Positions 1-63,079 of a stretch of 64,000 bases of DNA are shown piece by piece; the stretch's first letter is position 1, and the number at the start of each line of letters is the position of its first letter. Source of the DNA: Physcomitrium patens (taxonomy: Eukaryota; Streptophyta; Bryopsida; Funariales; Funariaceae); assembly GCF_000002425.4 (NCBI RefSeq), contig NC_037264.1, positions 11,299,941-11,363,940 on the forward strand, read 5' to 3'. A model generated the notes under the pieces. That model was not told the DNA's origin. It saw only the letters and a program-made list of their open reading frames with translations, and did no database searches. Both the position numbers and the translations under genes were made by a program.

Positions 1-79
1 ACTATCGACGAATCTCCATACTACCTTCTACAGCCAGACGCCCGACGCGTTCTCGAGCAGGAAAGCACGTAATACGATA
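1..79 (+). mobile_element. Element A: 3' end of its 5' LTR
   Basis: The first 79 bases match the last part of the LTR seen complete at 14,376-15,772 (opposite strand) and the piece at 15,773-16,136. The family LTR ends in ACGACA; here the end reads ACGATA (74-79), a C-to-T change. The rest of this LTR lies left of the window, so the outer target-site duplication of element A cannot be checked. Confidence 0.88.
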
Positions 80-84
80 AAAAG

Positions 85-100
85 TGGTGAACCCGACGTG
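85..100 (+). other. Putative primer-binding site of element A
   Basis: Five bases after the LTR end the sequence reads TGGTGAACCCGACGTG. It starts with TGG, which would pair with the CCA end of a tRNA. The same 16 bases sit four bases inside the LTR of element B (14,356-14,371, minus strand). Position and conservation support a primer-binding site. I could not assign the tRNA with confidence. Confidence 0.65.
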
Positions 101-151
101 AAAGCTTGAGGTAGAAGGTATTGGATTTCGGTTGATTTTATCTTTCTCTTT

Positions 152-6000: not shown

Positions 6001-6050
6001 AGCAAACAGCAATTGGGTAAATTGGTGCATACCGGAGGATGCACAGGTTC

Positions 6051-6062
6051 AGAGGGGGTGGA
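6051..6062 (+). other. Polypurine tract of element A
   Basis: AGAGGGGGTGGA lies directly before the TGTCGT that starts the 3' LTR at 6,063. The mirror copy lies at 8,369-8,380 in element B. Position and composition are those of a plus-strand primer. Confidence 0.75.
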
Positions 6063-6973: not shown

Positions 6974-8368
6974 TGTCGTATTTTGTGCTTGCCTGCTTGA
7001 GAACGCGCCGGGCGTCTGACTGTAGAAGGTAGTATGGAGATTCGTCGATAGTCAAGCAGTCTATCAGTTTTTGACTGCTGGAATATAAACGACTGCAACA
7101 ATGTACCGTAAATCTATACGGGTGCTCTTCGACTGCTTGTCGAAGTCCTTTTTGCCCAGCCGGTAGGTCTCTAGACGTTACAGAGAACCCCGTACAACCC
7201 AAACTGTTAACCTTCAATACAGCTTTGTACTTACGATCTTGTATCCACTGACTGTCTTGTTAGATTAACCCAATAAATTTCATTCACTCCGCATACTCAA
7301 TCCTATAGACACCCTTTTAATCCTTCAATCACAGACGTAACTCGATTTCACAAAACAGTCAAGAGTATTCAAACCCACTTCATTTAAAAATCCCGATTCA
7401 CCATTACAATACTGACTTCAGCAGCGATTGCCTCAGTCTTCCCCAAAACTCTACGAAGAAGAAAAATCCAAATTCTATGTCTTTCCTTCCCCGACCCGAA
7501 GCATGAAGCTCCTCTCTCTAATTCCCTTGATCTTCAAAAACTTCCAATGAAAACCGAACTGGTAACCTTCCAAAAGCTTGAAAACTCGCTCCCCTCCCCG
7601 ATTTCCCTCAAAAAAAAACCCCCTTCAAAACTATATCCCACCTAACCTTATCCTCTGAATTTCTTCAATCTTCTGTCTTAGATCTGGAATTGGCTCCCAC
7701 CTCAAGCTTGGATCCGAAATTGACTCTCGCCGTCAAGCTTTCTCCCCCGTTTTTGCCTTTAAGAAATCCATTTACCGAAAACAACGTTCCCTGAGACGGC
7801 ACAGAGAACAGGACAGCCTGAAACAGAATCAAACCCCGTAATCGGGACCACATTGAGTCGCCCGACCAATTCAGGTCCTATATTGGGAAAGATGCCCGTA
7901 GTAACCTGGATGTTCCCGTAATTGGGTCAAATTGGTCCTCGCGTCAAATTGGCTAAGACCCGTAGTAAGACCTGGATTTCTCGTAACTGGATCAAATTGG
8001 TCCTCGCATCAGATTGGCTAAGACCCGTAGTAAGACCTGGATTTTCCGTAACTAGACTGCATTGGGTTGCCCCACCAATACAGGTCTCATATTGAGTAAG
8101 AGGACCCGGATTGGATTATCGAAATTGGATCCAATTGGCTCCTCGAACCCATCTTGTGAATTGGTCCTTCTCTTCCTGCTGACTCCCGTTATTGGAATCG
8201 AACGGGGCATTTCAGTATGCCCCAGCTGACTGTAACGGAGTCACTGAACCTGACCACTCAGTATTTGTACTGGAGTTGGTCGATGCTCCCAATATTCGAG
8301 GTAACTGAATATTAATAAAATTCCTCTTTCTTTTTATTTTCACTGTATACTCGTCTTACAACACGACA
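6974..8368 (-). repeat. Element B 3' LTR (left copy)
   Basis: 1,395 bp, TGTCGT...ACGACA, collinear with the 1,397-bp right copy. It contains tandem 65-bp units around 7,924-8,053 carrying the words AATTGGTCCTCGC and ACCCGTAGTAAGA. The polypurine tract (minus strand) adjoins at 8,369-8,380. Confidence 0.9.
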
Positions 8369-8430
8369 TCCACCCCCTCTGAACCTGTGCATCCTCCGGT
8401 ATGCACCAATTTACCCAATTGCTGTTTGAT

Positions 8431-11400
8431 TCAGAATATATCCCCTACGTCTTTGTCCAGTTCATCTTCGTCACCTTTATTATCCATATCACTTTCATCT
8501 TCTTGCTGCGGAATCTCTGTACCTTCTTTAAGGTCTTCCATATTCATCTCTGCGTGTCTTCGTTTAAATATTTTTACTCTCTTCCCTGCAATTGGTATTT
8601 TTAATTTTGTACCATCTAACTCCCGTAATGAGTAAGTCGCATTATCATGAACAGTTGTTACAACATATGGTCCAAACCAACGTTTTGAAAATTTCCGCAA
8701 AGTACTATGTTGATTATCCAGACTATTGTCATAAACAAGTACCCAGTCACCTTCCTTGATTGCTTTTGGTCTCAATCGATGTTGCTTATCGAATCGCGCC
8801 TTGTTTTGTAACCTTGCTCTTTTTAACCTTTCCAATGCTATCTGGACATCTTCCGTTCTTTGCTCCAATTGTCAAATCCTAATAGCCAGAAGTTCTTCTC
8901 TTGTCAATCCATCTTCCCATGGTAGCATACTCCAAGTAAGTACCTTTTCTTCAATCGGCATAATTGGTTTTTGACCTGTCATAAGTTCTACTGGCATATA
9001 TCCTGTCACCGAACTATGTGTTGTTCGATCAGTCCATAATGCAAATGACAAAAGTCGTGGCCACTCTTTATCTTTCCCATTACAAGCTTTAACCAATGCT
9101 TCACAATCGGCGGGTGACCGCATTCGCTTTTCGCATTCCCTTCCGGATTATAAGCAGTAGTCAGTGATAGTTTAACTCCACATCTTTCAAAGAACTTACG
9201 AGCTTCTTGTGCATTTAATTCTCCACGATCTGCAGTGATTTTTCCTACGCACCCGTAACGGCAAATGACATCTTCAAGCAAAAACCTACAAATCCCCTCT
9301 GTAGATTTTGTCCTCAATGCTCTTCCTTCTACTTGATTTGATAAATCTTCACGAGCTAAAACCAAATATCTCATCTGCCATAATCCAACCGGCATAATAA
9401 CCAAATCAACAACCCATTTAAAATGAATAGCCAGAGGATACGTAGGATGAAGACCATCTCGATGTCCGATATTTGAATACGATTGACAGATTTCACATGA
9501 CTCTACAAATGAGAGCACATCTCGATACATATTTTTCCACCAATATCGTTCCTTGAGTTTAGCAAAAGTAGCCCAGATTCCTCTATGCCCTGCCCATAAA
9601 CTATCATGAAACTCCTTTAATAATTTTAGTTATTCTTCCCTTTTGCCTATCACTCGTTGTGGCATCCCAATTCCTTTCTTCGGTCTCTTCCATAAGAATC
9701 CATCTCGAAGTAAAAATCCATATGTTTTTTTTCTTATTAGTTTGAATTTTTTTGTAGACCAATTCTCCTGCTTAGACAAGGTATTCAAATAATGACCAAT
9801 ATCCAATAATTCTCCTTCATAAGCTTTTTCAAGAAATAGCTTGTCTTCTTTGTTGAGATTTGATATTGAATAAAATTTCAATCCGACATCATCAATGTCT
9901 TCAACCATTTCGTCCTCCCTCTCGTATCTTGCTCGAGATAGCATGTCTGCTACTAAATTGTCCTTTCCAGTGATATGCTTAAATTCTGGATTTAGTGACT
10001 TAATATAAGCAATCCATCTCAACATTGCAATATCTGGCATTGAACAGTTAATAATCATTCCAAGCAATGGCAAGCAATCTGTTTCAATTACTACTACTGC
10101 CCCAATCAAATAGTCCTTTTCAGCTTTCATAGCCGAAACGACTCCCCAAAATTCTCTTTTGACTTGCGAATATGCACGCTGACGAATACTTAAAACTTTA
10201 GTTCCAAATCAAACTGCAAATCTACTCCCATTCGAATCATCTTGACCCACCGCCCATCCAACGGCAATTGGACTAGCGTCTACAGTAAGAATCACTGGTC
10301 TATTGCACTTATAATCAACCTTCCTCAATATTGGAGGTGACATCAATAATTTCTTCAATCTTTGCATTGCCTGAATATGCCTTTCTTTCCATTCAAATCG
10401 GTAACCCTTGCATAACAGTTCATATAATAGATCCGCTATGTGAGCAAAATGAGGGATCCAGATTCGATAAAATACACATGCACCCAAAAACCTGCGAACC
10501 TCTGTTAAAGAACCACAATCCTCTTTCATCCTTCCAATTGCATCAACTTTAGTCGGATCTGGTTTTCTTTCGTAAGATCCGCATAAATGTCCAACAATTA
10601 CAACCTCTCGCACTCCAAATATGGACTTCATACTCGATAATGTAAGATGAACTTCTCCAAGCCGAGTTAAAATCTTTTCACAATCTTGTATATGATCAAC
10701 AACATATCTGCGACACCCCCTCGTATCTAAAGTTTCAACCTTGTCTCCATCTCTGCACCCCTTTATAGGAACATCATCCAGAAAAGGCATAGTCTTTTCC
10801 GGGATAAAATCTCTCAATACCTTATTCATCCCATTCATCATATGCGCAACTGAGTTGGTCGCGCCTTGAGGAAGAGTGCACATTCTAACCAATCCAAGTG
10901 GTGTCCTCATCGTTGTCATATCTCTACTTCCTTCGGCAAGTTAAAATTGATCATAACCTGAATATAAATCACCCATTGAATAAATTGCCCTTCTAACAAA
11001 CGCCTCAGCAAATCCATCCACAATAGGTCCAATTCCTGCATTCCTGACAGTTATAGCATTCACCGGATGCATATCTTGAATAAACCGTAGTGACCCATTC
11101 TTCTTAGGTACCGTAAACCATCGACTAGAATACGGCGCAAATGAAGGTTCCAATATTTTCATCTTTATCTTTTCTTTTAATAGCTCAACCAATTTAGGTA
11201 AATGTGCCCTCGGTACTGGAATCGGTCTTAGATTCCAAGGTACATGCGGTACAGTGAAGATAACCATAGGTGTTATAATATTTGGATCCACACATCCAAT
11301 TTCATGAGATTCGAAGGCAAACGATCTACCTTGTTTAGCCAACATCTTTTTGAAGCAAGTAATTTCCTCTAGCAATAAAGAACCATCAGAACTAATCTTC

Positions 11401-11930
11401 AATTCTTCAAAAGTCTCTTCAGTAAACTGATGTCCAATACTCATTGGATCTCTTAAACTCGCTTCTTTTGATGCTTCTCCCATTTGTTCTTTAGAATCCT
11501 CTGGTAATGGTCCGGCAACAGGCTTTACCTTCTTATTTGCCGTTTTATATCTCGTTTCTACTGTGACTTCTGGTGCTTGAAAAGATTCAAGCATGGTATA
11601 AACCTCTCTCGAATGAATCTCAACAATCTTATCATTATCTCCTAACCCAATAGATGTAATCAATTCCAATGAATCTTCCAGTCCATTTTCTTCATAAACA
11701 TCCAAAATCCTCTCATCATCTTGCAATGTACCTATCTTGCGTAACTGTCCTTCAATATTATATAATCTTTTTCTTTCTTTTCTTTTAAAATCATCAACTT
11801 TCTTATACATAATATTTCCATTCTCCAATATACCAATAAAACTCGCATCAAAGGTACCTTCATCTCGCGAGAGTACCTCCTCTTTTGTACCTCCATAATC
11901 TCGCTTTACAGTGGTACCTCCCCAAAATCC
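8431..11930 (-). pseudogene. pol: Element B pol, broken by four stops and a frameshift
   Basis: Same protein as the element A pol. On the minus strand the frame opens near 11,930 and ends at 8,431. Breaks: TAA at about 10,938-10,940 (CAA in A), TGA at about 10,209-10,211 (CGA in A), TAA near 9,628 (AAA in A), a one-base deletion near 9,113, and TGA near 8,870 (CGA in A). RT (11.3-10.7 kb), RNase H (10.3-9.95 kb), integrase (9.6-9.0 kb) and the C-terminal module are all recognisable. Three of the four stops are C-to-T changes. Confidence 0.9.
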
Positions 11931-14304
11931 TTAAATCCTTCAACAATCTTTGGCAATGGTTTCTCCCTCAACCTATCTCGATTCCGTTCATGGTTAGGAG
12001 GTACTGTTAGAAATTGTACAGCTTTCCTCCCATCTTCGCTCCGTACCCTTGCATAAGCAGAACCATCGTCAAGTACCTTTGTTTCCATCCGTGTTGCCGT
12101 GATATAAGGTTGTCCTAAAATCAACGGATAAGACGTTGTATCTTGAACGAAGAAATGTTGCTCCGTAGCAACATCCCCAATCCGAATTTTGACATCTGGA
12201 CAAGCTCCATATAATTCGCCTCGTGTGTTATTAGCTGCTTGTATTGCCCATCCATGTTCCATATCAATTGGCCATTTTTGCTTCTTATAAAGATCTTTAG
12301 ACATGAGATTTATTTCAGAACCATGGTCCACCAAAGCAACTATTGGTTCTTCTATATCTCCTATCTTCATCAATACCTCAGTAGTTGCCCTTGCCCAATG
12401 CTTTCGAGTATAATGGCTTAAAGTTTCCATTTCCTTGTCACTAGAATCTTCGAAACGTATTTGCTGATTATACCCATTCTTTTCATTTGTTGGTTGCTTG
12501 TAACCAATATCAACCTCTTCTTCATCTCTACATATTCTTACATCAATAGCATGACTCATTCCAGTTTCGCTCATTAATTGCCTCTTTCGCTTAATGTTGT
12601 CAATGATAACATCATGAAACTCCTTCTTTGCAATTCCCAAGACTTCTTTCAATGTGAATTCCACCTTAGCGTTTAATATACGTTCTTCCAACACCCCTTT
12701 CAAATTTGTTGCCGCTTCAATGTCAGAAAGTAGCTTATAAGCAATTGATTTGCCCTTATCTTTTGTCTCCGTTGTTTTTTCTCCCAATGATGCTGAGGTA
12801 TCCTTTATAAGCAATTCTTGTGAAGCTGCCTCCTGAGCCTTGTCTCCTCGAGTTTGCCTCTTAAAAGAATTTCCTTCTCTAGTATCATCAAAATTTCCTC
12901 GTCTTTTTTCTTCCATCAAAGCTTCCTGTTGGCTCTTAGCAATATATGCATGAACTGAAAGAGATTCAACAGGATCCTCCCAACCTGTTCTTCCTCGTAT
13001 TGTAGCTGCAGTTCTCAATAATGCTTCTCGAGGTAATTTCCCTTCTTGCATTGTAGAAACGGCAGAAGCCCAAAACTCACTAGTTTCCGTACTTCCACCA
13101 ATTTCATCATCTACTCTAGCACCATAACTTGCACTTTCTCGTGCTACTGTTTCATGCCCTTTTAAGTAATCTTGAACCAATGCTCTCATTCCTCCCTTGC
13201 CAAAATTGGTTTGTAGAAGATCCTCCCTATCTTTCAATGCTATCTTCCCATCTTTCCAGCAAATAATTCCCTGCCGTATCATATTATTAAATTCATTGCA
13301 ATCTTTTCTAGTGTGTGAAGCATCATCACACCAAATGCATCTTTGTACATATCCTTGTTTTGAAACATTCTTCGAATTATTTATAGAAGTATTCTCTTCA
13401 AGTCTTGCCAATTTGATTTGAAGATCTCGTGTTCCTTGTATAATTTCTTCCATCTCCATATCCGCTTTCTTTGACAAGGATGTCGAAGGTTGAACTGTAG
13501 GCATTGTCGGTGGTGTAGTACGTACTGGAGCTTTGGGTGCTTGTACTTGTTTCAGAATATTGCTCCTATCCTTCTTCCTTTCTTTTTTTGTAAGCAACCC
13601 CACCGCATCTTCAACGTTCTTCCACTTCGTTGTCAATCCTTCATCTTCTTCTTTGTCTTCAAGAAGGGGTTCTAATTTCTCTTGCAATTCTCCATCAGCA
13701 CCTTGAAGAAATAGATCAACTTTGTTCGGCTCCAATGTCAATTTTTCTACCTTCGATAATTGAGAGTACTGCCTCTCAAATTCCCTTAGTAGCTCTGTTG
13801 CTTGCAAATTCTTATTAGGCCGTTCAATCCATCCTAGAAACAGCTTCTTAGTAACGCGATCAATATCTTCCAAGAAATATTCCTCTTTCAATGCATGTGA
13901 ANNNNNNNNNNNNNNNNNNNNNNNNNNNNNNNNNNNNNNNNNNNNNNNNNNNNNNNNNNNNNNNNNNNNNNNNNNNNNNNNNNNNNNNNNNNNNNNNNNN
14001 NGTCCAAATAGTGCAACCATTTTCTTCTCAGAAACCCGATTTAATTCCATTTCACGAACATAACATCTTAAATACCTTGAAATATTCCTCCCATCAAATT
14101 GATCAATTTTATTGACCACTGCTTGCAATGCTTTGGTTGCCAAAGCTTCCTTCCGATCATTGCTTTGCTGTGCTGCATTGACAATGAGAAGGCTTGAAAC
14201 AAACTAGCAATAGACGGATCCATGTGCATACCTTGTCCTTTAGAAGACTCCCCACCAGAAATTTCTCCCAAAAATCCTTCAAAATTTTTATTTTCATTTT
14301 CCAT
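11906..14304 (-). pseudogene. gag-PR: Element B gag-protease with a frameshift and an assembly gap
   Basis: Starts at ATG 14,304-14,302. One base is missing near 14,175 in a CAG/CAA-rich stretch compared with element A, shifting the frame after about 43 codons. The remaining frame (from about 14,143) is open all the way to the TAA at 11,906 apart from the N run. The CCHC knuckle and the protease (again D-H-G) are intact. This is the better preserved gag of the two copies. Confidence 0.88.
13902..14001. other. Assembly gap (100 N)
   Basis: Exactly 100 N. Aligning the flanks with element A shows that only A bases 456-528 (73 bp, about 24 codons of gag) are missing, so the run is a placeholder of standard size and not a measured length. 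By chance 100 and 73 differ by 27, so the frame continues across it. Confidence 0.95.
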
Positions 14305-24841: not shown

Positions 24842-25090
24842 CGTCCAACACACTTTCAAAGAAAGATTAAAAATCTACACCAAACTAAGTCAAGCTATTT
24901 CTTAGACCACAAAGAAGGAATCCAAGAGTGCAAGTGAGAAAATAAGAGAAATCCTAAAACTATATTAAAATGGCTAAAATACCATAGCCAAGAAAAACTA
25001 CAACAAGTTTACTTATACTCATTACCATTCATAAGACTTGACTTAATAAGAATGTCAAGTCAAGGATTTTTCTCTACTTAGCAAGGAAAG
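24842..25090 (-). repeat. Element D 3' LTR (left, approximate)
   Basis: Similar over about 200 bp to 35,609-35,880, including AAATCTACACCAAA, TCAAGCTATTTCT and AGTCAAGGATTTTTCTC. Exact ends are unclear. Confidence 0.55.
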
Positions 25091-25099
25091 ACCAATTAG

Positions 25100-26500
25100 C
25101 AAATAAAGAAGACCAATCCGCACAACTGCCAATTTAGGATGTATAGAATCATTAACGAGAAGATGATAAGGAGCACAACTCTTTGAATACTTTCAATATT
25201 CTTATCCATCCTTACTTACTAATAGCAAAATACTATTAGATAATATATTCTTTAAATATAGAATTATGCACCTTATTTAAACATCAAGTATTGTAGATAC
25301 CTCATATTAAAAATATACATAATCTCCTCTACAGAATCTTTGCAAATGGGATCAATAAGCTCTACTACAAATGTGAGCACATCACAAAGTATCACAATAG
25401 ATAAGTTTTTTATAGCTATAAGTATGGCTTATTTAAAGAATTCTACCAAATCATGTCAACATTGAGCTCAATCATCAAGATCATCTAGGTCTACAACTAA
25501 ATCTAGATTTTTACATATTGAATTCGATAAAATTGATTCCTATCTATATAATAAATAATAAAGACTATAAGATGCTAAAGTTGCTTGTTTATGGAAGTGA
25601 TAACCTATTGAAATTTATGGCAATAACAAGTTCCAATCACAATGGTTGCCAAGAAGTAATTCATATTTTTATAATCTATGATTGACAATCTAAATAACTG
25701 GCTTAACTAGGCTATTTATCTCAAAATAATTTCTAGACATGATACCATAATCTATTAAAGCTTTAGTATATAAAGTTTTAAAACTTTCAAGAAATTTTCT
25801 TCCTTAATTCATTAAGACTTCAACAAGTGCTCCAAAACATATAAATATTAGATTAGAAAAAAGCCATAGTTGTCAATTTTAAAGAATTTTGTAGTAAAGC
25901 CACAAATTCAATTTACTTACTAAAATTTTCTACTATCACTAATACATACTTAGCTCCATGTGACATAACAATAAGTAGTTCAACAAAGTCTAAAGACTAA
26001 CAATAATACAAATCCATGATCAGTAATGGCTTCAATTGAGGTGATAAGGTATTAAAGCTTGATCTAATTCAATTACACATTCCATATTGAGAAATATATG
26101 TAGCCACTTGTTAGAATATACCACTCTACCAATATTGATTATATAACATAGAATGTGACTTGCATACCCTAAAATATCCAAGTTCTTCATGTACTTATTT
26201 TATTAAGGAAGCTCTTTGATCTAATCTTGGAACTATGCATCTAACTCCATTAAGCCACAAAAAAAAATAACAAAATATTTTTCTAATAAAATCTTATTAT
26301 TTGGTAATTAATTCTACCTCCTTACATATTAAAAATAGTTGAAGGAAATATTTTTAATTGAATCTTGTGCAAGACTGTAAGATCTTTTTACACATCATTA
26401 ATTATTTGATTCTTGTTCAATTTCTCATTTGAATTCTAATAAAGAACTATGGTTGCAAAACCTGATATTAAAATCGAATATATGGCTTCATGCCATTTAG
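25100..26500 (-). pseudogene. Element D integrase remnant
   Basis: Minus-strand translation gives recognisable integrase pieces: a QVATYISQYGMCNQI-like zinc-finger end near 26,090-26,150, a SLDFV catalytic-aspartate stretch at about 25,981-25,995, HGAKYVLVIVENFSKWIEF-like sequence near 25,900-25,960, and weak matches further left. Many frame stops are present. Identification rests on motif order after RNase H. Confidence 0.65.
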
Positions 26501-26599
26501 GGATTGCTTCTTTATCACAATTTCCATGCCACTAAGCTTTGATTAAGTCTTTTTTTAAAAAACATGGATTAAAAGAAAATCCATCAACATCCAAATTAT

Positions 26600-28010
26600 T
26601 AATGCGCGCCTAATGAACAACGTCAAAGTTGTATTCTTAAAGCAATAAAGCCTATCTAACAAACTTATTAGTAAGCTTATTTGACTCTATAAGCCACTTC
26701 AAAGATTGATGGTTACTTACCAATATAAAATATTAATCATACAAGTAAGGTCAAAAGTGAGGAATGGCCTTAACTCCTGCCAAAGCTTCCCCTTTTTAAG
26801 ATGAGTAATTTGACTTTATATTGTTATTACTTCTAAAAGTAAATACAATGACATATTCTTGTCATATATCATCTTTTTAAGTCATGCCTGCTTCTAATCG
26901 AACTACATTCTAATTTGTGTATAATTCAAAAGGTCTATTGGTACTTAGACATCATAGCATTAGAATTGAATCCAATTTTTGCATCAATATTCGAATGTAT
27001 GTTATTGCTTACAACCTTAAGTCTATAATTGAACTTTATCCATGAAAATAATAAAAGGCTTAGTAATAATGCTAAAGTTTTTAACAAACCTTTGCTAGTA
27101 GTTTGTCAATCCTAAGAAATCTTAAAGGCATGAAACATTATCTAGTGATAGGATTTTCTACAAGGCATCTACCATTACTTGTTGTATACTAAGACTTCAT
27201 GAGATAATCATGTGATCTAAGTATGATAATTATTCATAAAATAATTTATACTTCTCATGATGCAAGTATAATCTCTATTATCTTAATTTTTCAAATATTA
27301 CTTATAAATTCTTCACATGATCTTATAGAGTGCTACTAAAAATAATAAAATTATCAATGTAAAAACTAGCTAATAATAATCTAGATAAAAATTGATCCAT
27401 CATCTGTTAAAACTCAGCTAGTACATTTTTAAGTCCAAATAAAAGAAATTTCTAATGATAGAATTTATCTTTGTCATCTTGATCAACTCCCTAAAATATT
27501 CTCTTCATCTAGTCTTCAATAAGTACTAGTAATTGGTATTAATTAGATCTTAAATCTAAAATATTGAATACTCAAAAAAATCCTATTGCATCAAATAATT
27601 CTTTTGGCATTGACATTGAATATTAATTAGACTTAATTTTATAATTAATTGGATGATAGTTTCCATACATCTACTTCTTTGTCTGATTGCCAAAAACATT
27701 CTTTTTCAAAGGCATATCTATAGTACAAGTATACTTATTATTAAAAAGCTCAATAAAACCAACAGCCAATAACTCTTGGTAATGAGTTTGGACACTTATT
27801 TTTTTTAATGCACTTAGCTTATAAGGTAGTCAAAAGATTAAGTAATCATCTTTTAATTGGATGTAAATATGTTTGCTTTTATAATATTCAAGATCTTTAA
27901 GACTAAAGACAAAATAATTGCAATACGAGCAGATAAAAACTTGTATCTTTTATACTTCGGCATCAATAAGATGTGGTTCTAACTCCAGTGGCCAATCATC
28001 AAACTTTGTA
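26600..28010 (-). pseudogene. Element D reverse transcriptase and RNase H remnant
   Basis: On the minus strand: a GFIELFNNKYTCTIDMPLKK stretch near 27.75 kb, a LDLRS region near 27.55 kb, FGLKNVLAEF near 27,425-27,450, and YIDNFIIFSS at about 27,330-27,361 (normally YIDD). Then SYLDHMI and DFLGLTNY near 27.1 kb, and the RNase H end with NHQSLKWLIESNKLT near 26,665-26,715 followed by NNLDVDGFS. It is a Ty3/gypsy-type RT. In-frame stops are mostly TAG, TAA or TGA in place of Trp, Gln or Arg codons. Confidence 0.8.
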
Positions 28011-28399
28011 GTCTCATTTTTTACCAATTTAGTACCATTACATGCTGGCATGGCCTTTAATTGCTAATTTCTTGAAGAAATAATTCCTATAGCTTTAACA
28101 TACTTACTTCTTACTAAATAAGGGGCTTCATCATTACAATGTTTGTGTGAATTAGAAATATTGATAGAATATGGAGTGTCTTTCAAAAACAAATCTTATA
28201 AAAAAATCTTTTGAGCATTTGTTTTTTTTTAAGTCTTCAACTAAAATTGTAAAGACATATTAAGCTTGTAGCTCATTAATTACATGCTTCTATAAACAAA
28301 GAAATGATTTGGAATCTTCAACCTTAATAAGTTTAAGATCTATTACTTCTTGACTATTATTTTCTATCTTTAGAGTATTAATATGATCATAAAAATACT

Positions 28400-30065
28400 T
28401 TTGAATAGTAAGGCATATGTCAAAAATCCATATTAAAGTATTGAGGTTCATAACTTGGCCTAAAAAAAAGCGATGTTGTTTTTCAAAAAGATTATAAGTA
28501 GTTGTGGTGCTAGTTAAAAAGCCTATGGCATACTCCCCTTCATTGGCATTAGGTTCTTCATAGATTTGTGAATTGACATTTTAAATTATATAAAGTCCAT
28601 ATGCATGAAATGTAAAGGATGCTGGAAGTATTACAAATGTAAGAAATGTGCCATGTGGTGCCTCCATCTTATTAACTAAGATAAGAGAAGTTTCATCAAC
28701 CTTGTTCATAACCAAAAAAAATTGATTATTATCTAAGATATTATCAACATAACATTTTGTAGAATAGATATTAATTTATTTTTGAAAGATATTAGTAAAA
28801 TATATTAATAGTCCATATAATAGGCAATTCAGGAAGACAGATGAGTGATTTAGTTATTAAAAGTGGTTAATTATAGAATTACGGTTAGAATCTAGAAAAT
28901 CAGGAGAAAGTATATAGGAGTTGTAGAAGTTAATTAAGATGCCATCTGTGTAATAGTTGTGAGCCGGGATAAGCTTGGTGCTACCTCTTTTCTTTTGTTT
29001 GTTATTTTCTTTGAATAAGAAAATTGAGAGTTTTTGAATATTATGAAGTGAATTATGGAATGGAAATAAGATTGGTATTATTTGAAAAGAAGAAAGATTG
29101 AATGCTGAAATCTAATTATAGTTGAGCAGAGAGAATGAGTCTATATTTGTGTGAAATACCGTAATGTGAATGGCAGTTCTGTGTGAAGAATTCTAGTGAT
29201 TGGAATGAGGATAATTGTGTGCTGAAAGCTGTGAGGGCTTAGTATTACAGTTGGAGATTATGAGGGTGAATATATTGGTGGAAATAGTAGTTATTGGTAT
29301 GACTGAATTACTGTAAGGAAGAAACCGATAAGGTGAAGGAAGAGATTATAGTTTCCTTATGTGTTTAGATATTGGAAATAGAGATGATACATTCAGGAGA
29401 TAATTGATTGTGTGATCCTAACGTGAACGCTTAAGCAACTTATCATTCCCTATGTTCGAATCTCCTTATATGGGTTTATTCCCATTAGATTAATTTGGAA
29501 TAAGTAAAACGAGCAATCACACATTTAAAAAGTGATTTAACTCTAAAAAGTGATTTTATTAATATGTGAGACAATGCTAGGTTGATTTAAATGATATGAG
29601 ATTGATAAACATATGAGCCTAAAACTATGAAATCCAAATAGATTAGAAAACTTAAGAATTGGTTAATATATTAACCAATATATTAGTGTAAACCACCACT
29701 ATGTAAGTGACATCAAATCTGTAAATAAACTCAATCAAGAATCATCTAATTGTTGATCTATTGCAATACATGAATGACAAGGACAAGGCCACTAAGTAAT
29801 CAATAAGTTTATATGGCCTAATCTCCTTAAATCTTCACTTTTAATGAAGGTAATATCACAAGTAAGTTGGTTAAAATAATCAAGAATAGTAGAAGATTGT
29901 AGTTGTATAGGATACATAACCAACAATCTTTGGAGATGATGTTAGGCTACTTGATTAGGTGCAGGTTTAATATCCACATGAATGAACTATGAAATAATAA
30001 GCCTAACTTCTAATATTACTACCAAACCTATATCAATGCATGAAAAGAGCTCGACAAGGATAATA
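28400..30065 (-). pseudogene. DNA (cytosine-5) methyltransferase domain inside element D
   Basis: Sits between protease and RT on the minus strand. Motif I (SAM binding) is VELFSCIDIGLVVILEV at about 30,005-30,055 (family form F-x-G-I-G). The catalytic Pro-Cys motif IV is WPCPCHS at about 29,771-29,791 (family form PCQ), in the same frame as motif I, with stops only where C-to-T change would make them. After a foreign insertion (about 28.79-29.45 kb) the C-terminal part resumes: EEPNANEGEYAIGFLTST at about 28,515-28,566 and FLGQVMNLNTLIWI at about 28,425-28,465. These resemble the GFP...LLGRSWSVPVI end of DNMT3-type enzymes. The order I, IV, IX/X is conventional, unlike the rearranged DRM order. 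The enzyme would have methylated DNA; this copy is dead. Confidence 0.75.
28790..29450 (+). mobile_element. Insertion inside the methyltransferase of element D (element E)
   Basis: The methyltransferase reading breaks off near 29.45 kb and resumes near 28.79 kb. The intervening ~660 bp has a different composition (G-rich on the plus strand) and no similarity to the domain. It contains GAGCCGGGATAAGC and a TTTGAATAAGAAAATTGAGAG stretch with a poly(A)-like AATAAG, as in some LTRs. It may be a solo LTR or another short element. Ends and class are uncertain. Confidence 0.4.
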
Positions 30066-30399
30066 CCTTTATTTGGTGGATGCCAATGAAAAGATTGAAT
30101 AAAGATAGATAAAAAAAAGATTATGATATCTTCAATATATCCAATGAAGATACAATGTCTTTGTATTGGCAAAAAAATTCTGCACATGTTTTCTAGGGAA
30201 GAGATGGATCTTTCTTGTATTTTGCATGAAGTTCTAAAGATGGTGTATTAATTAGTCCAATAGAAAGGAATATAAATATTCTTATTTTTTCTAATAAAAC
30301 TATTCTACAAGAAAAATAAAATACCAATGTACTACAATCAAATATGATTTTTGTTAACATAATTATAGTAGTTATTGTAAATGTTATTGGAAAAAATTC

Positions 30400-30760
30400 T
30401 TTCTTTCTATCACTAATAGTCCATGTCAATTGAATCCATGCTTCTTCAATATAATTATCTAGATCAAAAGTAAATAAATAAAGGACTTATTGGCCTACTA
30501 AAATATTATAATTGGTGTCACTAATCACTACATATTTTAGAGATAAGTGTGAATAAAGTGGACTAGATCTAATGCAAATTATTAATTACAAAGGTTGCAT
30601 GATAGAGGCAATAGCTCACTCTCTACCCTCTATTGAAGTGACAATGGTGAAAGGATAAGGTTCTTAGTTTGTAAGAATAAGACCTAATTCTTGAGCAAGT
30701 TTGTTATCAATCATAACTTATTGAGCTCCAAAATCTAACATAATGTAAAAAAATATAGTA
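30400..30760 (-). pseudogene. Element D aspartic protease remnant
   Basis: Minus-strand translation gives YIMLDFGAQ near 30,725-30,745 (normally L-D-S-G-A), then LAQELGLILTN, PFTIVTSIEG, and TNYNILVGQ with LDNYIEEAWIQLTW near 30,440-30,520. The frame then runs towards the methyltransferase. The same protein order occurs at 62.1-62.9 kb. Confidence 0.68.
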
Positions 30761-31499
30761 CAAGAAGTATTGCCACTAATATAGCTAACAACCATCAAGT
30801 TATTATTGTTAATTAATTGTACAAATCTTCAATGTAAATTTTGACATTCTTGAGTAGGTCTAATTACAACATCAAATAAAAATACTATCTCTATAGCCAA
30901 TAGTACTATATTTGAAGGATTTATGTTTATGGCCTTTAAGTGACTTTTATTAAATATGACAATAGCTTTAATTACAAGTTTTGCTTATAATTTAATTAAA
31001 TCTTTTCGAGTTAAAGACTTTGTTACTACTTAAGCCTTATGTAAAGATAGTATAGGCACTTTGCTTTCTAATATTTTATTAGCCAATTGAAAGATCTTTG
31101 TTGGTTTAAATTCTAAAGCCAGTAAGTCAACATTAAAAAATATAGGCATATTTAATACTTTGTAAGCCAAAGTATATATTATTTTTTTAATACAAATATT
31201 TTTATTTTGTGTTAAAGTTGAAATAGAAGATTTTACTATAGAATTAACTTTTACAAGGCCAAAAGATAAAGACAATTATATATAAATATTAAAATCTTCA
31301 TAAGTACTTGTATAAATAGATAAAGATTCTAATACTTTACTTATTATAGGTACCATATTCTTAGCAGTTGTTTAAATATATGTGGCAGTTGTAACCACTA
31401 TTTATCTTAATTTTCTAAATATATAATGTTTTCAAAACAAAGAACTTGTTCCATCTCTAGAAGTTACTTGAGATCTGATGACTTAGCTTAATGAGGCCA

Positions 31500-32650
31500 T
31501 ACTATTGAATCTCTTCTCTAGCTTAGTAATTTTTACTTCTAGAGCCTTTTTCTTATTCAAAGTTGGTTGTTTGAGTGGATGTAATATGAAGCAATTATCA
31601 TCATTGTGGTTAAGCTTACTACAATAAAAAATACTTCAATTACTTCTTTTTAGATTTATCTTCTACTTTAGCCATTCCAACTTTTGGCTTAGACTTCTCT
31701 ATGTATAAGGCTTTCTTCTTCTTAGAATAGTTGAAGTTATTTTATATGTGACCCGATTCACCATACTCCTAACAATGCATACTCTTTTTAAGTTGAGTTT
31801 CTATCAAGTTACTTTTGGTAGTTGCTATCTTCTTAGATTTAGATACATCTATCATCTAAATTACTATATCATTAGCATCATATTGACAAAGTACCTTGTC
31901 ACATTTCTCAACTTTAACAAATGCTTGTACTAATATTATCTTGATATTTTAGTTGAAATTAATTCTTGGCATGACTAAATCCAAAAGTCTCTTATCAATC
32001 TTAGATAAGAATATATTAACAAGTTGATTCTCAACAAATACATTTTTTGACTCTACATCAAATTAAACTAAATAAATATATATAATACATGAAGTATCTT
32101 CTTTTTTATGATCGAATTCTTAAATACATTGCATTTGATCATGCCAAAAAATCTCCATACTTGTGCTTTAAATGCTTAATAAATCTTTGAAGAAGTTCAA
32201 ATGATGACGGCTCTTCTATTGCAAATAAAATTATTTTCATTGCTTGAGCCATGCAAGACAAAGTAATTAGAGTGTTGGTTAAAGAAGTAGCTATTCTTTT
32301 TTTTTTTATACCTTTCAAAGATATTTCAACTTTTTCTTAGATTTGATCTTTTTTCTTCACCATAGGCATGAAGCTTGACATAACAACCTCCATAAGAGTT
32401 GAAATAAGCTCTATACATGCTTCTTAATAATACTTTACTTCACCCAATTCAAGTGAATTTATTTCACTTCATTTTCTATAGATTTGGAGCACTTCATGCT
32501 CTAAGTATTGTAATAAGAGTTCAAAGGCATACTATTCATTAAAAGTGAGAGATCTTTGTTGTTTTTTCTTCATTTCTGTTTAAAACTTGACTTTTCAATC
32601 TGACAAAGCAATGTTTGTAATTCTCCTCAAAAATCTATCCTTCATCATAT
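31500..32650 (-). pseudogene. Element D gag remnant
   Basis: Minus-strand translation gives long stretches such as YAFELLLQYLEHEVLQIYRK, EACIELISTLMEVVMSSF and ELLQRFIKHLKHKYGDFLA (about 32.55-32.15 kb). Further on are two zinc-knuckle relics, EYGESGHIWNN-like near 31,740-31,790 and YCSKLNHNDDNCFILHP near 31,560-31,625. It is identified as Gag from the knuckles and its place before the protease. Confidence 0.6.
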
Positions 32651-32999
32651 TGCAAGGTTTTTCTTCTATCATGTAAAATATTTCCACGTCTAGAAAACAA
32701 AGCCTCTCAATGATATCCAATACTGAAACATGTTGAAAAATCTCGTTAGTATCTATCTTAGTTTGAAGTCCTTAATGTGGTCACTATCTAAGTAATCTAA
32801 TAAAGAAGATTGATAATAACAACTCTTAGTATGCAGCATTAAAAGACTACTTAAATATTTTTAACTATTTAAAGGTTAAAAAGGCAACATATGCTTGCAA
32901 AATCACCAATCTTTGTAATTCACTGACAATCACCTTTGTAGTACTATTGGTTCAATATATCTACAAAAAAAAAGATCTTATTGGCCATCAACCCAATCT

Positions 33000-35611: not shown

Positions 35612-35880
35612 GTCAATCTACAAATTGAAGAAAAGAAGAGACTCTTTTCAAGTGAAAGATTAGAAATCTACACCAAATTAAATCAAGCTATTTCTCACAC
35701 CATAAATAAAGAATCAAAAAGTACAAGTGTGAGAATAAGAGATATTCTAAAGCTTTATTAAAATGGCTAAAATACCATAGTGAAGAGAATATATAGTAAG
35801 TTCTTTCACTTTAAAAACCAATCACAGGACTTGACTTGATAAGAATGTCAAGTCAAGGATTTTTCTCCATTTAAGTATTC
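35609..35880 (-). repeat. Element D 5' LTR (right, approximate)
   Basis: Starts TGTCAATCTAC on the plus strand and matches 24,842-25,090 over about 200 bp. Confidence 0.55.
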
Positions 35881-38367: not shown

Positions 38368-38915
38368 TGTCAAAGACAAGAACTAAAAGATGATGCATAA
38401 ACCAATAAAATCTGTATTAAAGAAAGACTAATAAAATAGAAATAAGAAATTACATATATTAAAGAAAAATTAGAATGGCTTATTGCCAAAAAATAAGAAA
38501 ACTTGAGACTCTTGAAACTAGATTAGAAGTAAGAAAGGAATTGACAAGAGTGAAGAAGATTCACTCTTATCTTTATATATACTATTTAACTAGGGACTAT
38601 GTAGTAATGTTCTATAAGACCTCAAATATATGTTGACTTTGTAGGACACATGCCTTGACTTACAAGGCAAGTTTTTCTATGTGTAGGCCACATATTTAGC
38701 TTGGTCTTCAAGCTAACTATATGTATGGTACATGGTCAACTTGTTGACCACATTTCTAATCCAGAAAGTCAATTAAAGACACATGTAAAGTCAAAGAAAA
38801 ATCTATGAAGCTTCTAGAAAGCTTCCATAGAAGTTATTATAGAATTAACTTATTTTTACTTACTTTTACATATTTATATAGGTAATTAATAGCTTTCATG
38901 CATATGTCCATGACA
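38368..38915 (-). repeat. Element C 3' LTR
   Basis: 548 bp with TGTCA/TGACA ends. It contains GAAgcTTCtaGAA near 38,810-38,822, a three-unit heat-shock-element-like string. Adjacent plus-strand TTACTCCCTTTTTTAGG (38,916-38,932) is the polypurine tract on the minus strand. Confidence 0.92.
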
Positions 38916-38939
38916 TTACTCCCTTTTTTAGGAACATGT

Positions 38940-39720
38940 TCTACGAGGAGAGGTCATCATATATTGAAAAAATCTATGATGCGACAAATTATATTCGCTA
39001 CATATTCAAATCTTTATTTTCTTCGAAGATGATTGATAAGGCCTCTCAACCATCAATAGAGTCCATACCAGGGTGGAAAGACCACCTTGTTATTTAATCA
39101 TTGTTGAGGCCTTCATAACTTCCTTCAAATAAAATATTTGGAACACCATCAAGAGTTGTTCGTACCTCTAATAAAATTACCAAACATTGGAAGTCTTTTC
39201 CAAGGTCATGATACCAAACGCGTTGTATCTTGCCATCTATTCGAGGACAAACATGTCATTTTTGAAGATCTTCATCTCAATTACATCATCTTGAAGATTG
39301 TCACAATTGTAATGTCTTGTCCGACAGATCAACAAACAAAAGCTCTTCAGTCAAATCCGCTGATTGTTGGTTTTGTATCTCTTTAGTATCACAACTACAA
39401 AGAAGCTATAAACAAGGATTGAAAATAAGAGGTAAAACAATCTACTATCATGAATATAGAGTCATAAGAACCTAAGATTGGAAGATCTATGATGAAATCC
39501 ATAGAAACAAAAGACCATAGTTGTTCTAGAATAGGTAATGATTGAAGAAGTCCGTAAGATCGATGATGAAGAGTTTTTCATCTTAAACAAATGTTGCATG
39601 ACTGAACAAAGTCTTTCACACTCATCTACATTTGTGGCAACCAAAAAGCTTTGAATATAAGCTCCAAAGTCTTCTTGTAACTAAAATGTCCTATTGCTAG
39701 AAAGTCGTGACGTACTTGAA
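38940..39720 (-). pseudogene. Element C integrase remnant
   Basis: Minus-strand translation near 39,460-39,640 gives a VKDFVQSCNICLR zinc-finger end, then YGLLQSLPILEQLWSFVSM with the first catalytic aspartate in MDFI. Frames left of this are broken and I do not see the complete core. Confidence 0.65.
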
Positions 39721-40059
39721 GAACATGTAATTATATTTCTCCTTTTGGAACATATAATCAACCTTCAAAATAGAGTAGGTTATTTTTGAACTCAAACTTA
39801 GAAGTATCTTGGAACTTAAAAGAAGGATTCTTAATATTGTGAACAAGAAGATCAGAAGACATACTTCATTGGATTTGTTTCACAAGGGTCAAATCAATAG
39901 TCAATATTGATTTCATTATTCAAAGATAAAAATGCTCTAGTTTCAAGAGAATTATTCTTTGCTAATCAAAAGATCCATCTTTTTCTTTTAGTACAAGATA
40001 AGAACATCTAAAAAATACGTCTGACAAATCTTGTTGTTTTTTGAGTCAATAAATAATCT

Positions 40060-41535
40060 TAAAATCAAATCTTGATAAAGACATGCTCTAATGGGCTTGA
40101 CAACAATTTAAAACATATGCTGACATGAAGTACTTAAGATTCTTGTGATTCGTATATACGGTGATTGGATTAGAAGTGCCTTCTAGATGATGATGCCATT
40201 CTTAAAATGAATCCAAAATTGCAAGAAGCTCTTTGTCGTAGATTTCATAGTTAATCTTGGCTATTGAAAAGTTTTTGGAATAAAAAACTACTAGATGAAG
40301 TTTATCATCTATTCTTCTTTCTGATAATATAGCATGTAAAGCAAATTTTGATGCATCTATTTTCATAAAAAATGCCTTTGAAAAGTTGATGCAATATAAG
40401 ATTGGTACATAAATAAAGGCTCACTTTGAAGTTTCAAAAGGTGTTTCAGCTTCTTTACTCCATTCAAGTTTATTTTTACAAGTCAAACATATAAGTCGAG
40501 CTGTAATTTGAGAGAAGACTTTGATGAAGATCCAATAATAGTTAGCAAAGCTCAAAAAGTATTGGACATCTCCTACCATTTTTAAAATCTTTTAATCTAT
40601 AATTTTTAAAATTTTCTTAGCATCCTTCATAAGTCCATCATTTGAAATGATGTATCTTAAGAAGTCGACTTGAGTAGTATAGAATATACACTATTCTATC
40701 TTGACATAGAGTCCAACATCTCTTAATTTTTGTAACACATGATGAATATGAAGTTTATGTTCATTTATGTTTTTAGAATAGATCAAGTTGTCGACCAGAT
40801 AATAGACAATAAAATCATCTGAAAACTCTCAAAAAATATCATTCATTAGATTAAAAAGTTATCGGTGTATTTTTAAGTCCAAAAAGTATGACGTTATATT
40901 CAAAATATCGATACCTAGTTCGAAATGCAATCTTCCATTCATCTCTTTTTTTAATAGGTACTAGATTGTATGCTCTCCATAGATCTATTTTTGTATAGAT
41001 CTTGGCTTATTTTAATTGATCAAGAAGTCCGAATATTAAAGATAGAGGTTACTTATTCTTGATAGTGATCTTGTTGAATCCTTGATTCATCTTTTTTCTT
41101 TACAAATAAGATTGGAGCTCTTGTTGGTAATTTAGAATAGTGTATGAAATTCTTGGTGAGATTCTCTTCAATATATTCTTTGAATTCAGCTAATTTATTT
41201 TGTGTTAAACTATAGAATGGTCCAAATGGCGGTTGTGATCCTTCTTGAAAGTCAATTGAGCAATCATAGAGATGATGTTCTAGAAGAGTATCCGCATTCT
41301 TCTTCTGAAATACATCTTGAAATTCTTGATATTGGTTGGAAATGCAACTTGAAGTCTTTGCATCATTAGAAATAAGTGTGGCATAAATGACACAAGGTGA
41401 CCCTTCTTTTGCAGCATGCAAGAAAGCTCTTGCACCTACAAATATAGGTTTAATTGCTCTAGACTTATGACTTTCTATTGGATTAATTTTATTCTTAATT
41501 ATGCTTTTAAAGAAGTCAAGGATATGAGAAATCAA
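40060..41535 (-). pseudogene. Element C reverse transcriptase and RNase H remnant
   Basis: RT starts in an open frame (41,535-41,053) with QPPFGPFYSLTQNKLAEFKE and PTRAPILFVKKKDESRI. It continues broken: GFNKITIKNK (about 41,050), [17 protein letters not shown] (about 40,930), and a YLVDNLIYSK relic of YLDDILIYS (about 40,790). RNase H follows: IDDKLHLVVFYSKNFS, NYEIYDKELLAILDSF (about 40,200-40,290) and [19 protein letters not shown] (about 40,120-40,190). Confidence 0.78.
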
Positions 41536-41562
41536 ATCTATACAAGGATTATATTTTTTTAA

Positions 41563-41919
41563 CTATGATAAATCTAAAATGATTGAATTAGAAGGAGATC
41601 TAATTATATTAAAGATTATGCAACTACTATGATCATTTATTGCTACATCTATAGGAAGTGTTTCACGAGTAATATCTCCAAAAGACAATAGATGACCATC
41701 TATGACTTCTACATGAATAGGTTTGATTTTTTGTACTAATGGTATTTTATGACTTTTAACAAATTCTACATCTAAGAAACAAGTTGAGGCTCTTGAATCT
41801 ATCAAGGCAGAGGCTTTATATTTATTAGGTTGTAAATATAAATCTATTTTAAAACAAAGAGAGGATTCTGAGGAGAAGATAGGACCTTCATTAAAAATTG
41901 TACAAGATTCCAGCCACAT
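41563..41919 (-). pseudogene. Element C protease region
   Basis: Open frame with ASALIDSRASTCFLDVEFV, the retropepsin active-site region (usually L-I-D-S-G-A-S), here with Arg for Gly, which should inactivate it. It lies directly before the RT frame. Confidence 0.65.
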
Positions 41920-42659
41920 GGTCCATATTATAGTTCGACAAATTCGTTTTCCAAGACATTTTCTTCTTTGACAGATGTGCTCCTCATTTTGTGATTTTGT
42001 TGCTTCTTTGGATAATGTTGAGCAACGTGTTTAGATTTTCTATAATATAAGTACAATCCTTCTTGACAATGACAAGTCTTTTCTTACTCAATAAGAGGTT
42101 TAAAACATACTACATCAATTTATATATCTTCTACTTCTGAATGTATGTGTTGAAGAGATACTGGTATTGCCATCCAATTATAGTAATATTGAGGGCCATT
42201 TATACAACTCTCAAATCGAAATTCAAAAAGTTAATTGTCGCATTTCACAACATGGTCAATTGTTTGACTCAAAATTTGAGGATCAAGTAAGTTGAGGATC
42301 AATTTCTTTATTTCATATTATAATCCATAGAATAATTGGCTAATAAATGTAACATCATCCTACTTGATATCAATTACAAATTATCAAAATTATAAAGTAT
42401 ATAATGTTATAGATTGATTGCCTTGTCACAAAATATGGATCTTATTAGTAGTAATATGAATTGAAGTTTTTCATACATGGATCAAAATTCTACCAAAAAT
42501 GTCTCCAAATTATCCAATATTGGATCTTGTCATTCAAGAAAAGATGAAAACCACAATAGTGTTGATCTTAAAAGAAGTGTATCAATGAATCTAACTTCTG
42601 ATCCTAGAGTTGGATAGCTTTGGAGTTCAAGTTCAATCACAAATTGTACTTAATTGATA

Positions 42660-42958
42660 AATCTTCAAAATTTAGATCTTGTTCCATCAAATTTCTCGGG
42701 CAGGGCAATTTTTGGTTCTCTAACACTTGAAAGATGATCCACCATAGGTAGAAGGATATGATTTGATGTAGATGTTGAAGCAACTCTAATTATCTCTATA
42801 TCTTCACTTTTTGCCATTCTTGTTGATCTATGTGGTGGTAAGCTAAGTTGATGCATCGCAAGCATCAATTCTCTCAATTGCTCTTGCATTTGTGCCATTG
42901 CACTCTTCATTTCAACAAGCTCTGCTATATTAATACTCAAAAGAATATCTAATATCAC
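42660..42958 (-). pseudogene. Element C gag N-terminal region
   Basis: Frame with a coiled-coil-like SAMAQMQEQLRELMLAMHQL and then KIALPEKFDGTRSKF, typical of the start of gypsy Gag. A start near 42,958 is arbitrary. Downstream Gag (42,660-41,930) is out of frame. Confidence 0.6.
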
Positions 42959-43134
42959 TCAAGATAAGCAGAAGAAAAGACTTGAGGATAAAGAAAATAC
43001 TAAGAATAATATCAGTTTAGAAGAGGATAATCTGTAACTTCTAATATGCTTATGTCTTATCATGATAAAGGAGTAATCTATTCTTAATCAAGATAAGACA
43101 AAGCTTTGATATTGTAAGTGTACTCTTGTCATTC

Positions 43135-43682
43135 TGTCAAAGACATGAACTAAAAGATGATACATAAACCAATGAAATCTATGTCAAAAAAAGAGTAATA
43201 AAATATAAATAAAGAATTATGTATATTAAAGAAAAATTAGAATGGCTTATTGCAAAAAGACAAGAAAACTTGAGACACTTGAAACTAGACTAGAAGCAAG
43301 AAAGGAATTGGCAAGAGTGAAGAGGATTCACTCTTGTCTCTATATATACTATTTAACTAGGGGCTATGTAGTGATGTTCTATAGGATCTTCAATGTGTGT
43401 TGACTTTGTAGGACACATGCCTTGACTTATAAGGCAAGTTTTTCTACGTGTTGGCTACATATTTAGCTTGGTCTTCAAGCTAACAATATGTGAGGCACAT
43501 GGCCAACTTGTTGACCACATTTCTAACCTAAAAAGTCAATTAAAGATACATGTAAAGTCAAAAAAGCATCTATGAAGCTTCTAAGAAGCTAATATAGAAG
43601 ATATTATAGAATTAACTTATTTCTACTTACTTCTACTTATTTATATAGGTAATTACTAGCTTACATGCGTATGTCCATGACA
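43135..43682 (-). repeat. Element C 5' LTR
   Basis: 548 bp, same length and ends as the left copy, with scattered point differences of several percent by eye. Confidence 0.92.
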
Positions 43683-44038
43683 ATTATCTAGTTCTATATT
43701 TTTTTTAAAAAAAATTAATTAATTGTTTTTTGTTTATTACAAGGTGCTTTGGTTTCTTTAATAAGAAGGTTTGAATATGAATACAATTTTGTAAAAATTA
43801 TTAATATTTATAAAAATAGGATAAAAAATTATTTTCTTTTTTTTGTACATCATTATTTATTATTTTCTCATCATGTTTTCAGATTCTTAAGATTAATTTT
43901 CTTAAGTATATTAAGAATAATATAGTCAATTTTTAAAATAAATATAATGATTGAGATTATCAATGTGATTATCTTACATTATTTCAAACTATATTAATTG
44001 AATTCATCAAAACTTGCCCAAATTAATTACAACTTTAA

Positions 44039-62039: not shown

Positions 62040-63060
62040 AGTTGTTTGGTTGTCACATCAAATTATAGTAGCTTGAGTTAAGATTGATGTTTGATGAAGA
62101 TTGTAAAGGAAATAAAGGCAAATTTCCTTAGAGGCAGTGGTGGCCACAACCATGTATTTTGCCTCCATATTAAAAAGTGCCATTCACTATTGTTGTATAT
62201 ACAAGAATTAGATCTTATTTTTACAGACTTGAAATCTTTTTTTTTCACCATTGTCACTTCAATAGGGAGAATAGACCAAGCTATTAGTTATATCAAACAA
62301 CCTATGTAATTAATATTTTTACTAGATCTAGTCTACTTTATTTATACTTATTTCTAAAAACTTGTTGTGATTAATGTCACTAATTATGATATTTTAATGG
62401 ATCAATAGGTCCTTTATCCATTTGGTTTTGATTTAGATAATTGGATTGAAGAAGCATGGATTCAATTGAGATGGTCTTCTGGTGATCAAAGAAAAGAATT
62501 CATTCTCTTTACATTTGTAACAACTATTATAATTATATCAACAGAAACCATATTTGGTTGTAATGCATTAGTACTTAATTTGCCTTGTGGAATAATCCTA
62601 TTAAAAAAATATTAGCATTTATATTTTATTCTATAGAACCAACTAATCCACCCTCTTTAGAAGTTCATGCAAATCATTGGAAAGATCCATCTCCTCCTTA
62701 GAAAACATGTGCAAAATTTTTTTGCCCATGTGAAGAAATTGTATCTTCATTGGATATATTGAAGATATCAAAATCTTCTCTCTCACCTATCTTTGTCCAA
62801 CATATTCATTGACATCTATTAAATGAAAAAATTATCCTTCTGGAGCTCTTTGCAAGTATTGATACAAATTTGAGAGTAGTATTAGAAGTTGGGCCTATTG
62901 TTTGATGATACATCTATATGGATATTAGAATTATACCTAACTAAGTAGCTCAATATCATCTCTAAAGATTATTGGTTATGTATCTCGAACAACTACAACC
63001 TCTACCATTTGTGGTTGTTTTAGCCAACTTCTTTGTCATATCATCCTCATTAGTAATGAG
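62040..63060 (+). pseudogene. Second protease-methyltransferase fragment (element D family)
   Basis: Plus-strand copy of the part of element D that joins protease to methyltransferase. Readable pieces: ELDLIFTDLKS and FTIVTSIGRIDQAIS (62,200-62,290), TNYDILMDQ, LDNWIEEAWIQLRWSSGDQ (62,420-62,480), then motif I LELFASIDTNLRVVLEVGP (62,840-62,896) and LVMYLEQLQ. It stops near 63,060, before motif IV, where repeat F copy 3 begins. It is better preserved in the linker than the 30-kb copy. Dead: several in-frame stops. Confidence 0.72.
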
Positions 63061-63079
63061 AAGATTATGTTGTTGTATT

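Follow-up and report, generated by a model that had tools for sequence, protein, structure and literature searches.

Did a retrotransposon at this moss locus carry its own DNA cytosine methyltransferase (MT), and if so, what kind of element was it and how would the enzyme have been expressed and used? Within the window, the whole 64,000-nucleotide stretch of Physcomitrium patens DNA analysed here, the first-pass annotation had read pieces of such an enzyme between the protease and reverse transcriptase (RT) of an element, D, and had pointed to captured MTs in retrotransposons of Klebsormidium and Symbiodinium, which the accessible text of PMC5890265 does describe. Our results support a retroelement-carried DNMT3-class MT between protease and RT and refine that reading: the MT is part of the gag-protease ORF rather than of Pol, the UAG that follows this ORF is probably leaky, and the family has more than one architecture.

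Pfam scans of D's MT pieces alone (E up to 10) returned no methylase and PDB searches with the same pieces returned no relevant match, and intact relatives were therefore sought. A pectinesterase PDB match at E=1.1 was dismissed as chance. With the decayed D frame as query, a homology search scored 0 of 307 candidates, and a search of viral contigs with a D piece found no relative; viral contigs searched with alignment A1 gave 61 loci at 24-35% identity, which we interpret as C5-MTases of phages or bacteria. A DNMT3-like consensus sequence, which served only as a probe, was used to score 8000 candidates and yielded 198 proteins at E<=0.001, 120 of which were compared with D. Among genome contigs the search found a single locus, L062 (CADCWO010000201.1, 9285 bp), labelled as a Synechococcales MAG. 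L062 is intact, and its ends share a 127-bp repeat. Its ORF1 (8582-9283 plus 3-3491) encodes gag, protease and MT, its ORF2 (3492-6635) encodes RT, RNase H, integrase and a PHD finger (PF00628, E=4.3e-10, L062:6444-6611), and the two lie in one frame, parted by a UAG. From its gene content we infer that L062 is eukaryotic DNA misbinned in a cyanobacterial MAG, and eukaryotic contamination is the likely source of retroelement DNA in both Synechococcales and Candidatus Obscuribacterales MAGs. The homologue P0003 comes from a Candidatus Obscuribacterales MAG, where its annotation reads DNA cytosine methyltransferase.

Element D spans ~35.9 to 24.9 kb on the minus strand and is a decayed Ty3/gypsy-like LTR retrotransposon. 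It has long terminal direct repeats, recognisable as segments (24854-25080 and 35646-35873), and the Ty3/gypsy order protease-RT-RNase H-integrase is found in L062 by Pfam and in D by alignment. The parts recognised, including a second fragment elsewhere in the window, are as follows.

35646..35873, minus strand: 5' LTR segment, ~228 bp recognisable; direct copy, 82% identical to the segment ending at 25080.
31664..32839, minus strand: gag remains in several frames, with a zinc-knuckle-like motif (by eye); tblastn match to P0121 residues 1-390, collinear with L062 gag.
30124..31626, minus strand: end of gag, protease (MLDFGAQ, 30741-30721) and linker to the MT; tblastn match to L062 ORF1 residues 221-726, 34% identity.
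29687..30097, minus strand: N-terminal part of the MT, retaining the catalytic Cys, with motifs I and IV (PCP); 54-57% identity to P0003/P0002 and 47% to L062 ORF1 736-872.
29536..29676, minus strand: probable MT motif VIII region in a different frame; tblastn matches to P0121 1076-1126 and P0122 1072-1122 at 31-33% over 51 aa, a weak member of a linked tblastn set, the remainder judged by eye against P0003.
28760..29535, minus strand: insert of ~0.8 kb that interrupts the MT, with approximate boundaries.
28191..28748, minus strand: C-terminal part of the MT and ORF1 tail; 37% over 186 columns to L062 ORF1 952-1136 and 52% over 116 aa to P0003.
28064..28066, minus strand: UAG between ORF1 and ORF2, with CAATTA directly downstream; L062 has its in-frame UAG at the aligned position.
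26993..28063, minus strand: RT; 51% to L062 ORF2 1-357, RVT_1 at E=3.9e-9 (frame from 28498).
26265..26978, minus strand: RNase H and connection to integrase; 50% to L062 ORF2 363-600, RT_RNaseH at E=2.6e-15.
25121..26266, minus strand: integrase; 45-61% to L062 ORF2 600-984 in three segments, Integrase_H2C2 at E=0.0026, under the cut-off.
24854..25080, minus strand: 3' LTR segment; 82% identity with 35646-35873, in direct orientation.
62202..63066, plus strand: second decayed fragment of D's family, running from the protease into the MT N-terminus; 78.5% identical to 30693-29830 at the nucleotide level.

Across gag to integrase, D thus aligns with L062 in segments that are 34-61% identical, and P0121, P0122 and P0129, those of P0121-P0129 with alignments shown, also align with D across ORF1. 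Asp_protease_2 in D (E=0.045-0.074) falls under Pfam's curated cut-off, as does the protease match of L062. The PHD finger of L062 has no counterpart in D, where ~40 bases separate the last integrase match from the LTR segment. In the insert that splits the MT, no clear target duplication was seen; the stretch between the MT pieces, taken in one frame, matched nothing under E=3 among 120 homologues, and eight tblastn queries placed zero segments between 29524 and 28751. The insert differs in composition, with a CHG observed/expected ratio of 1.49 (28791-29530). An inverted repeat, CTTGACTTGACA...TGTCAAGTCAAG, is common to the noncoding region of L062 (L062:7228-7255, perfect) and both D LTR segments (25064-25037 and 35857-35830, near-perfect).

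The peptides on which the first-pass annotation had based its MT are present on the minus strand, motif I (VELFSCIDIG) at 30055-30026 and motif IV (WPCPCHS) in the same frame at 29791-29771, while the proposed DNMT3-like C-terminus includes FLGQVMNLNTL at 28466-28434 in another frame. Their placement between protease and RT also holds, the protease motif and the RVT_1 match lying on either side, collinear with intact L062. The N-terminal piece (motifs I-IV) matches P0003 at 54% over 143 aa (E=7e-51) and P0002 at 55% (E=2e-51), and the C-terminal piece matches the same two proteins at 52% over 116 aa (E=3e-38) and at 52% (E=1e-38). Against 157 proteins the two pieces reached 154 and 119 bits, respectively, compared with maxima of 28.1 and 26.2 bits in a control of 200 shuffles per piece, and a family profile of 34 members built without any window sequence gave the N-terminal piece 118.5 bits. 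The stretch between protease and RT, when tested for an unrelated domain, matched MT homologues instead. In the profile search suggested for the locus, Pfam recovered RVT_1 from D, and the methylase profile PF00145 was recovered from intact relatives in other genomes and not from D's raw MT pieces.

The class of the enzyme follows from these relatives. PF00145 scored above its cut-off in 10 of 10 homologues scanned, and a 24-row profile ranked PDB entries in the order DNMT3A (7.9e-24), DNMT3B, 4onj (1.4e-13; labelled DNA methyltransferase, which we take to be a DRM), DRM2 (6.5e-11), DNMT2 (~1e-8) and HhaI (7.6e-7); P0003 alone as PDB query again placed DNMT3A first. In a fold search with P0003 as modelled by AlphaFold (mean pLDDT 80.3, pTM 0.75), the best 50 of 165 matches at E<=0.001 were all DNMT3-family entries. 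The PF00145-positive relatives match D strongly and have DNMT3A/B as their best sequence and fold relatives, which bears out the DNMT3 assignment made at first sight. In intact relatives such as P0003 and L062 the C5-MTase motifs I, IV, VI, VIII and X follow one another in canonical order, and throughout the 24-row alignment, a few rows of which are truncated on one side, the region of motif I lies ahead of that of motif X. DRM enzymes have a permuted order with the C-terminal motifs first; as this order is absent from the family alignment, a DRM identity was rejected. Animal DNMT3 enzymes are accompanied by ADD/PWWP domains, which are not required for the DNMT3 class in general; in 10 MT proteins, no full polyprotein among them, Pfam at E<=0.001 reported only PF00145 and neither ADD nor PWWP.

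A pseudogene of the host's DNMT3 or DRM, or an unrelated fragment, could in principle have come to lie within D by chance, and D is so decayed that its own pieces show no methylase in Pfam or PDB. Against this, intact L062 has an MT in the same place, in an open frame shared with gag and protease; D aligns with L062; and the fragment at 62202-63066 repeats the protease-MT junction. A chimeric origin of L062 itself would sit poorly with P0121-P0129, proteins of 1252-1376 aa from one contig each in which the MT is similarly placed. We therefore regard a chance host fragment as extremely improbable.

The MT region of L062 matched 37 proteins, of which seven carry a species name: five from Marchantia polymorpha (P0140, P0142, P0143, P0145 and P0147, of which two are labelled partial), one from Calypogeia fissa (P0138) and one from Closterium sp. 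(P0157). Two further Calypogeia proteins, P0041 and P0119, came from the search with the DNMT3-like consensus. The liverwort proteins are annotated only as hypothetical, uncharacterized, CCHC-type or unnamed. In an MT tree of 53 rows, the window piece, a long branch with 39% of its columns filled, groups with P0002 and P0003 in a 99/98-supported set of 16 that includes L062; P0041, P0138, P0140, P0142, P0143, P0145, P0147 and unnamed rows form a 100/99-supported set of 12, separate from the window clade. Human DNMT3A sits on a very long branch and is an unreliable root for this tree. In an RT tree of nine rows plus matches, identity to L062 across the RT region is 41-66% for the MT-bearing elements and 26-29% for two other window elements; these sequence comparisons suggest that the MT-bearing elements may form one lineage, the deep RT branches being weak.

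Placement of the MT varies within the family. In P0150 and P0155 it sits between RNase H and integrase, and domain lists together with MT positions indicate that the same is probably true of P0153, P0154 and P0156. P0150, P0155 and P0157 did not reach PF00145 at E<=0.01; the family profile gave them 298, 256 and 84 bits, respectively, P0157 over only part of the profile. Both the shifting position in P0150 and P0155 and the partial match of the Closterium protein would suit a functionless passenger, passively carried along. However, in an alignment of 34 proteins, which are as little as 32% identical to P0003, conservation of the catalytic columns (P0003 positions Cys118, Glu161-Asn162 and Arg201) is at least 90%, and we consider a mere passenger unlikely. 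A PHD finger closes the integrase in L062, P0150, P0153, P0154, P0155 and P0156, that is, in six of the seven integrase ends seen, D being the exception.

Directly after the UAG that separates the two ORFs stands CAATTA in D and CAATCA in L062, the first sequence decayed and the second from the sole intact DNA locus; both fit the tobamovirus-type context CAR-YYA, which readthrough of TMV RNA requires according to the available text of PMC2754532. D's clade has 16 rows, and in the other 15 the protein ends 83-115 aa past the MT; the stop codon itself is seen for L062 only, the remaining rows being protein ends. The stop is not universal, as P0144 and P0148 hold MT and RT within one ORF, and the Marchantia model P0143 continues into RT-like sequence. 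Judged from this context, the UAG is probably leaky and is predicted to be read through.

The copy in the window is dead and its enzyme destroyed. Approximately 26 codons including motif VI (ENV) have apparently been lost between the N-terminal piece and the motif VIII segment, and, given also the ~0.8-kb insert and the many stops, the D copy makes no enzyme. Segments aligned with L062 contain 85 stops in 2018 codons, 64 of the 85 falling where L062 has Arg, Gln or Trp, a direction count biased by the higher GC content of L062. D is strongly depleted in CG (observed/expected 0.18) and CHG (0.35), compared with 0.74 and 1.18 in the gene region of the window (44.5-51.5 kb). This loss, together with the stop pattern, fits a history of methylation and later deamination. 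It would also suit an enzyme that acted indirectly, moderating copy number or keeping new copies methylated and stable and so sparing the host; yet ordinary host silencing of any dead element leaves the same scar. Element A, in which no MT was found, stands at 0.72 (CG) and 0.77 (CHG), but it is less decayed and probably younger than D. An indirect role is accordingly a possibility that we take seriously but think somewhat doubtful.

Methylation by the enzyme of the element's own cDNA, or of the surroundings of a new insertion, is favoured over these rival functions. The ORF1 polyprotein would comprise gag, protease and, as its last enzymatic domain, the MT, with the probably leaky UAG (CAR-YYA) parting it from RT, RNase H, integrase and, in relatives, the PHD finger. 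Most ribosomes would stop past the MT, placing the enzyme at Gag level and leaving the RT-integrase part scarcer. The MT may then be packed into particles, where, if catalytically active, it could methylate the cDNA or the DNA around the insertion, perhaps to the benefit of the element. Taken jointly with these steps, the account of D as an old, dead Ty3/gypsy-like copy from a family whose own DNMT3-class MT ends ORF1 seems to us very likely the best explanation of the locus. Defence of host or element against foreign DNA such as DNA viruses, rather than action on the element itself, has been speculated for retrotransposon-encoded methylases in the accessible text of PMC6338049. A Gag-level enzyme inside the particle would nevertheless better fit the element's own cDNA as target, and a defensive role appears improbable.

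Several known systems resemble D in part. KnitGypsy-Dnmt3 of Klebsormidium nitens, as far as its published description goes (PMC5890265), is likewise a gypsy-type LTR element of a streptophyte with a Dnmt3-class MT lacking the DRM-type rearrangement. According to the same description, however, its MT lies in the Pol ORF and its repeats have a DIRS-like structure, whereas D has ordinary direct LTR segments, an MT in the gag-protease ORF before the UAG, as in L062, and relatives with an integrase PHD finger. No protein named K. nitens appears among 120 of the 198 matches of the consensus probe or among the 37 matches of the L062 MT, which do contain the distant Closterium protein P0157. The available text of PMC5890265 reports no activity for the K. 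nitens gypsy MT in yeast, a result that its authors call inconclusive, and de novo CG methylation in yeast by the SymbioDIRS MTs of Symbiodinium. SymbioDIRS-Dnmt3 and SymbioLINE-Dnmt are, like D, described there as retrotransposons with a captured cytosine methyltransferase but, unlike the Ty3-like LTR element D, they are DIRS and LINE elements of dinoflagellates. Rice gypsy-type retrotransposons with candidate readthrough, cited in the accessible part of PMC2754532, share with D the proposal that part of the polyprotein is expressed through a stop codon.

The domain order of the relatives also invites comparison with elements that read chromatin. Chromoviruses carry a chromodomain at the integrase C-terminus and, to our knowledge, no MT; we likewise know of no methyltransferase in the rice readthrough elements. 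Novikova et al. are said to have described chromodomain-bearing Ty3/gypsy elements in mosses in 2008. L062 resembles chromodomain-bearing elements in having a chromatin-reader-like domain at the integrase C-terminus of its polyprotein but differs from them in that the domain is a PHD finger; none of the 13 families matched by its ORF2 at E<=0.1 is a chromodomain. The nearest PHD fingers of solved structure include those of CHD4, PHF12, KMT2D, UHRF1 and KDM5B, several of which read the unmodified H3 N-terminus. The similarity suggests that the integrase PHD finger of the relatives may guide integration by chromatin. We offer more tentatively, as a proposal that is on balance unlikely, that these elements are a broad, unrecognised land-plant LTR lineage combining a Gag-level DNMT3-class MT with an H3-tail-reading integrase PHD finger, in which the finger would pick the chromatin and the MT would methylate there; if true, the combination would amount to a self-directed heterochromatin strategy.

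The Gag-level MT and the PHD finger together suggest a concrete mechanism and, Marchantia being a genetic model, whether a transposon gains by methylating DNA becomes directly testable. Retrotransposons with captured cytosine methyltransferases are known, from the accessible text of PMC5890265, in dinoflagellates and a charophyte alga, to which D's family adds liverworts. The available text of a 2019 paper describes methylase-bearing transposons as missing from land plants, and among open-licence papers, covered by titles and the starts of abstracts, we found no report of a land-plant element of D's kind.

The window contains further gypsy-type elements. Another Ty3/gypsy element is present twice, at 529-6422 and 8010-13901, in copies that are 96% identical, lie in opposite orientation and have large open frames; they are probably younger than D, and a 100-base N gap (13902-14001) adjoins the second. 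A further decayed gypsy-like element occupies 38368-43686 on the minus strand, with RT at ~41.0-40.0 kb, and is bounded by repeats at 38368-38918 and 43135-43686 that are 89% identical.
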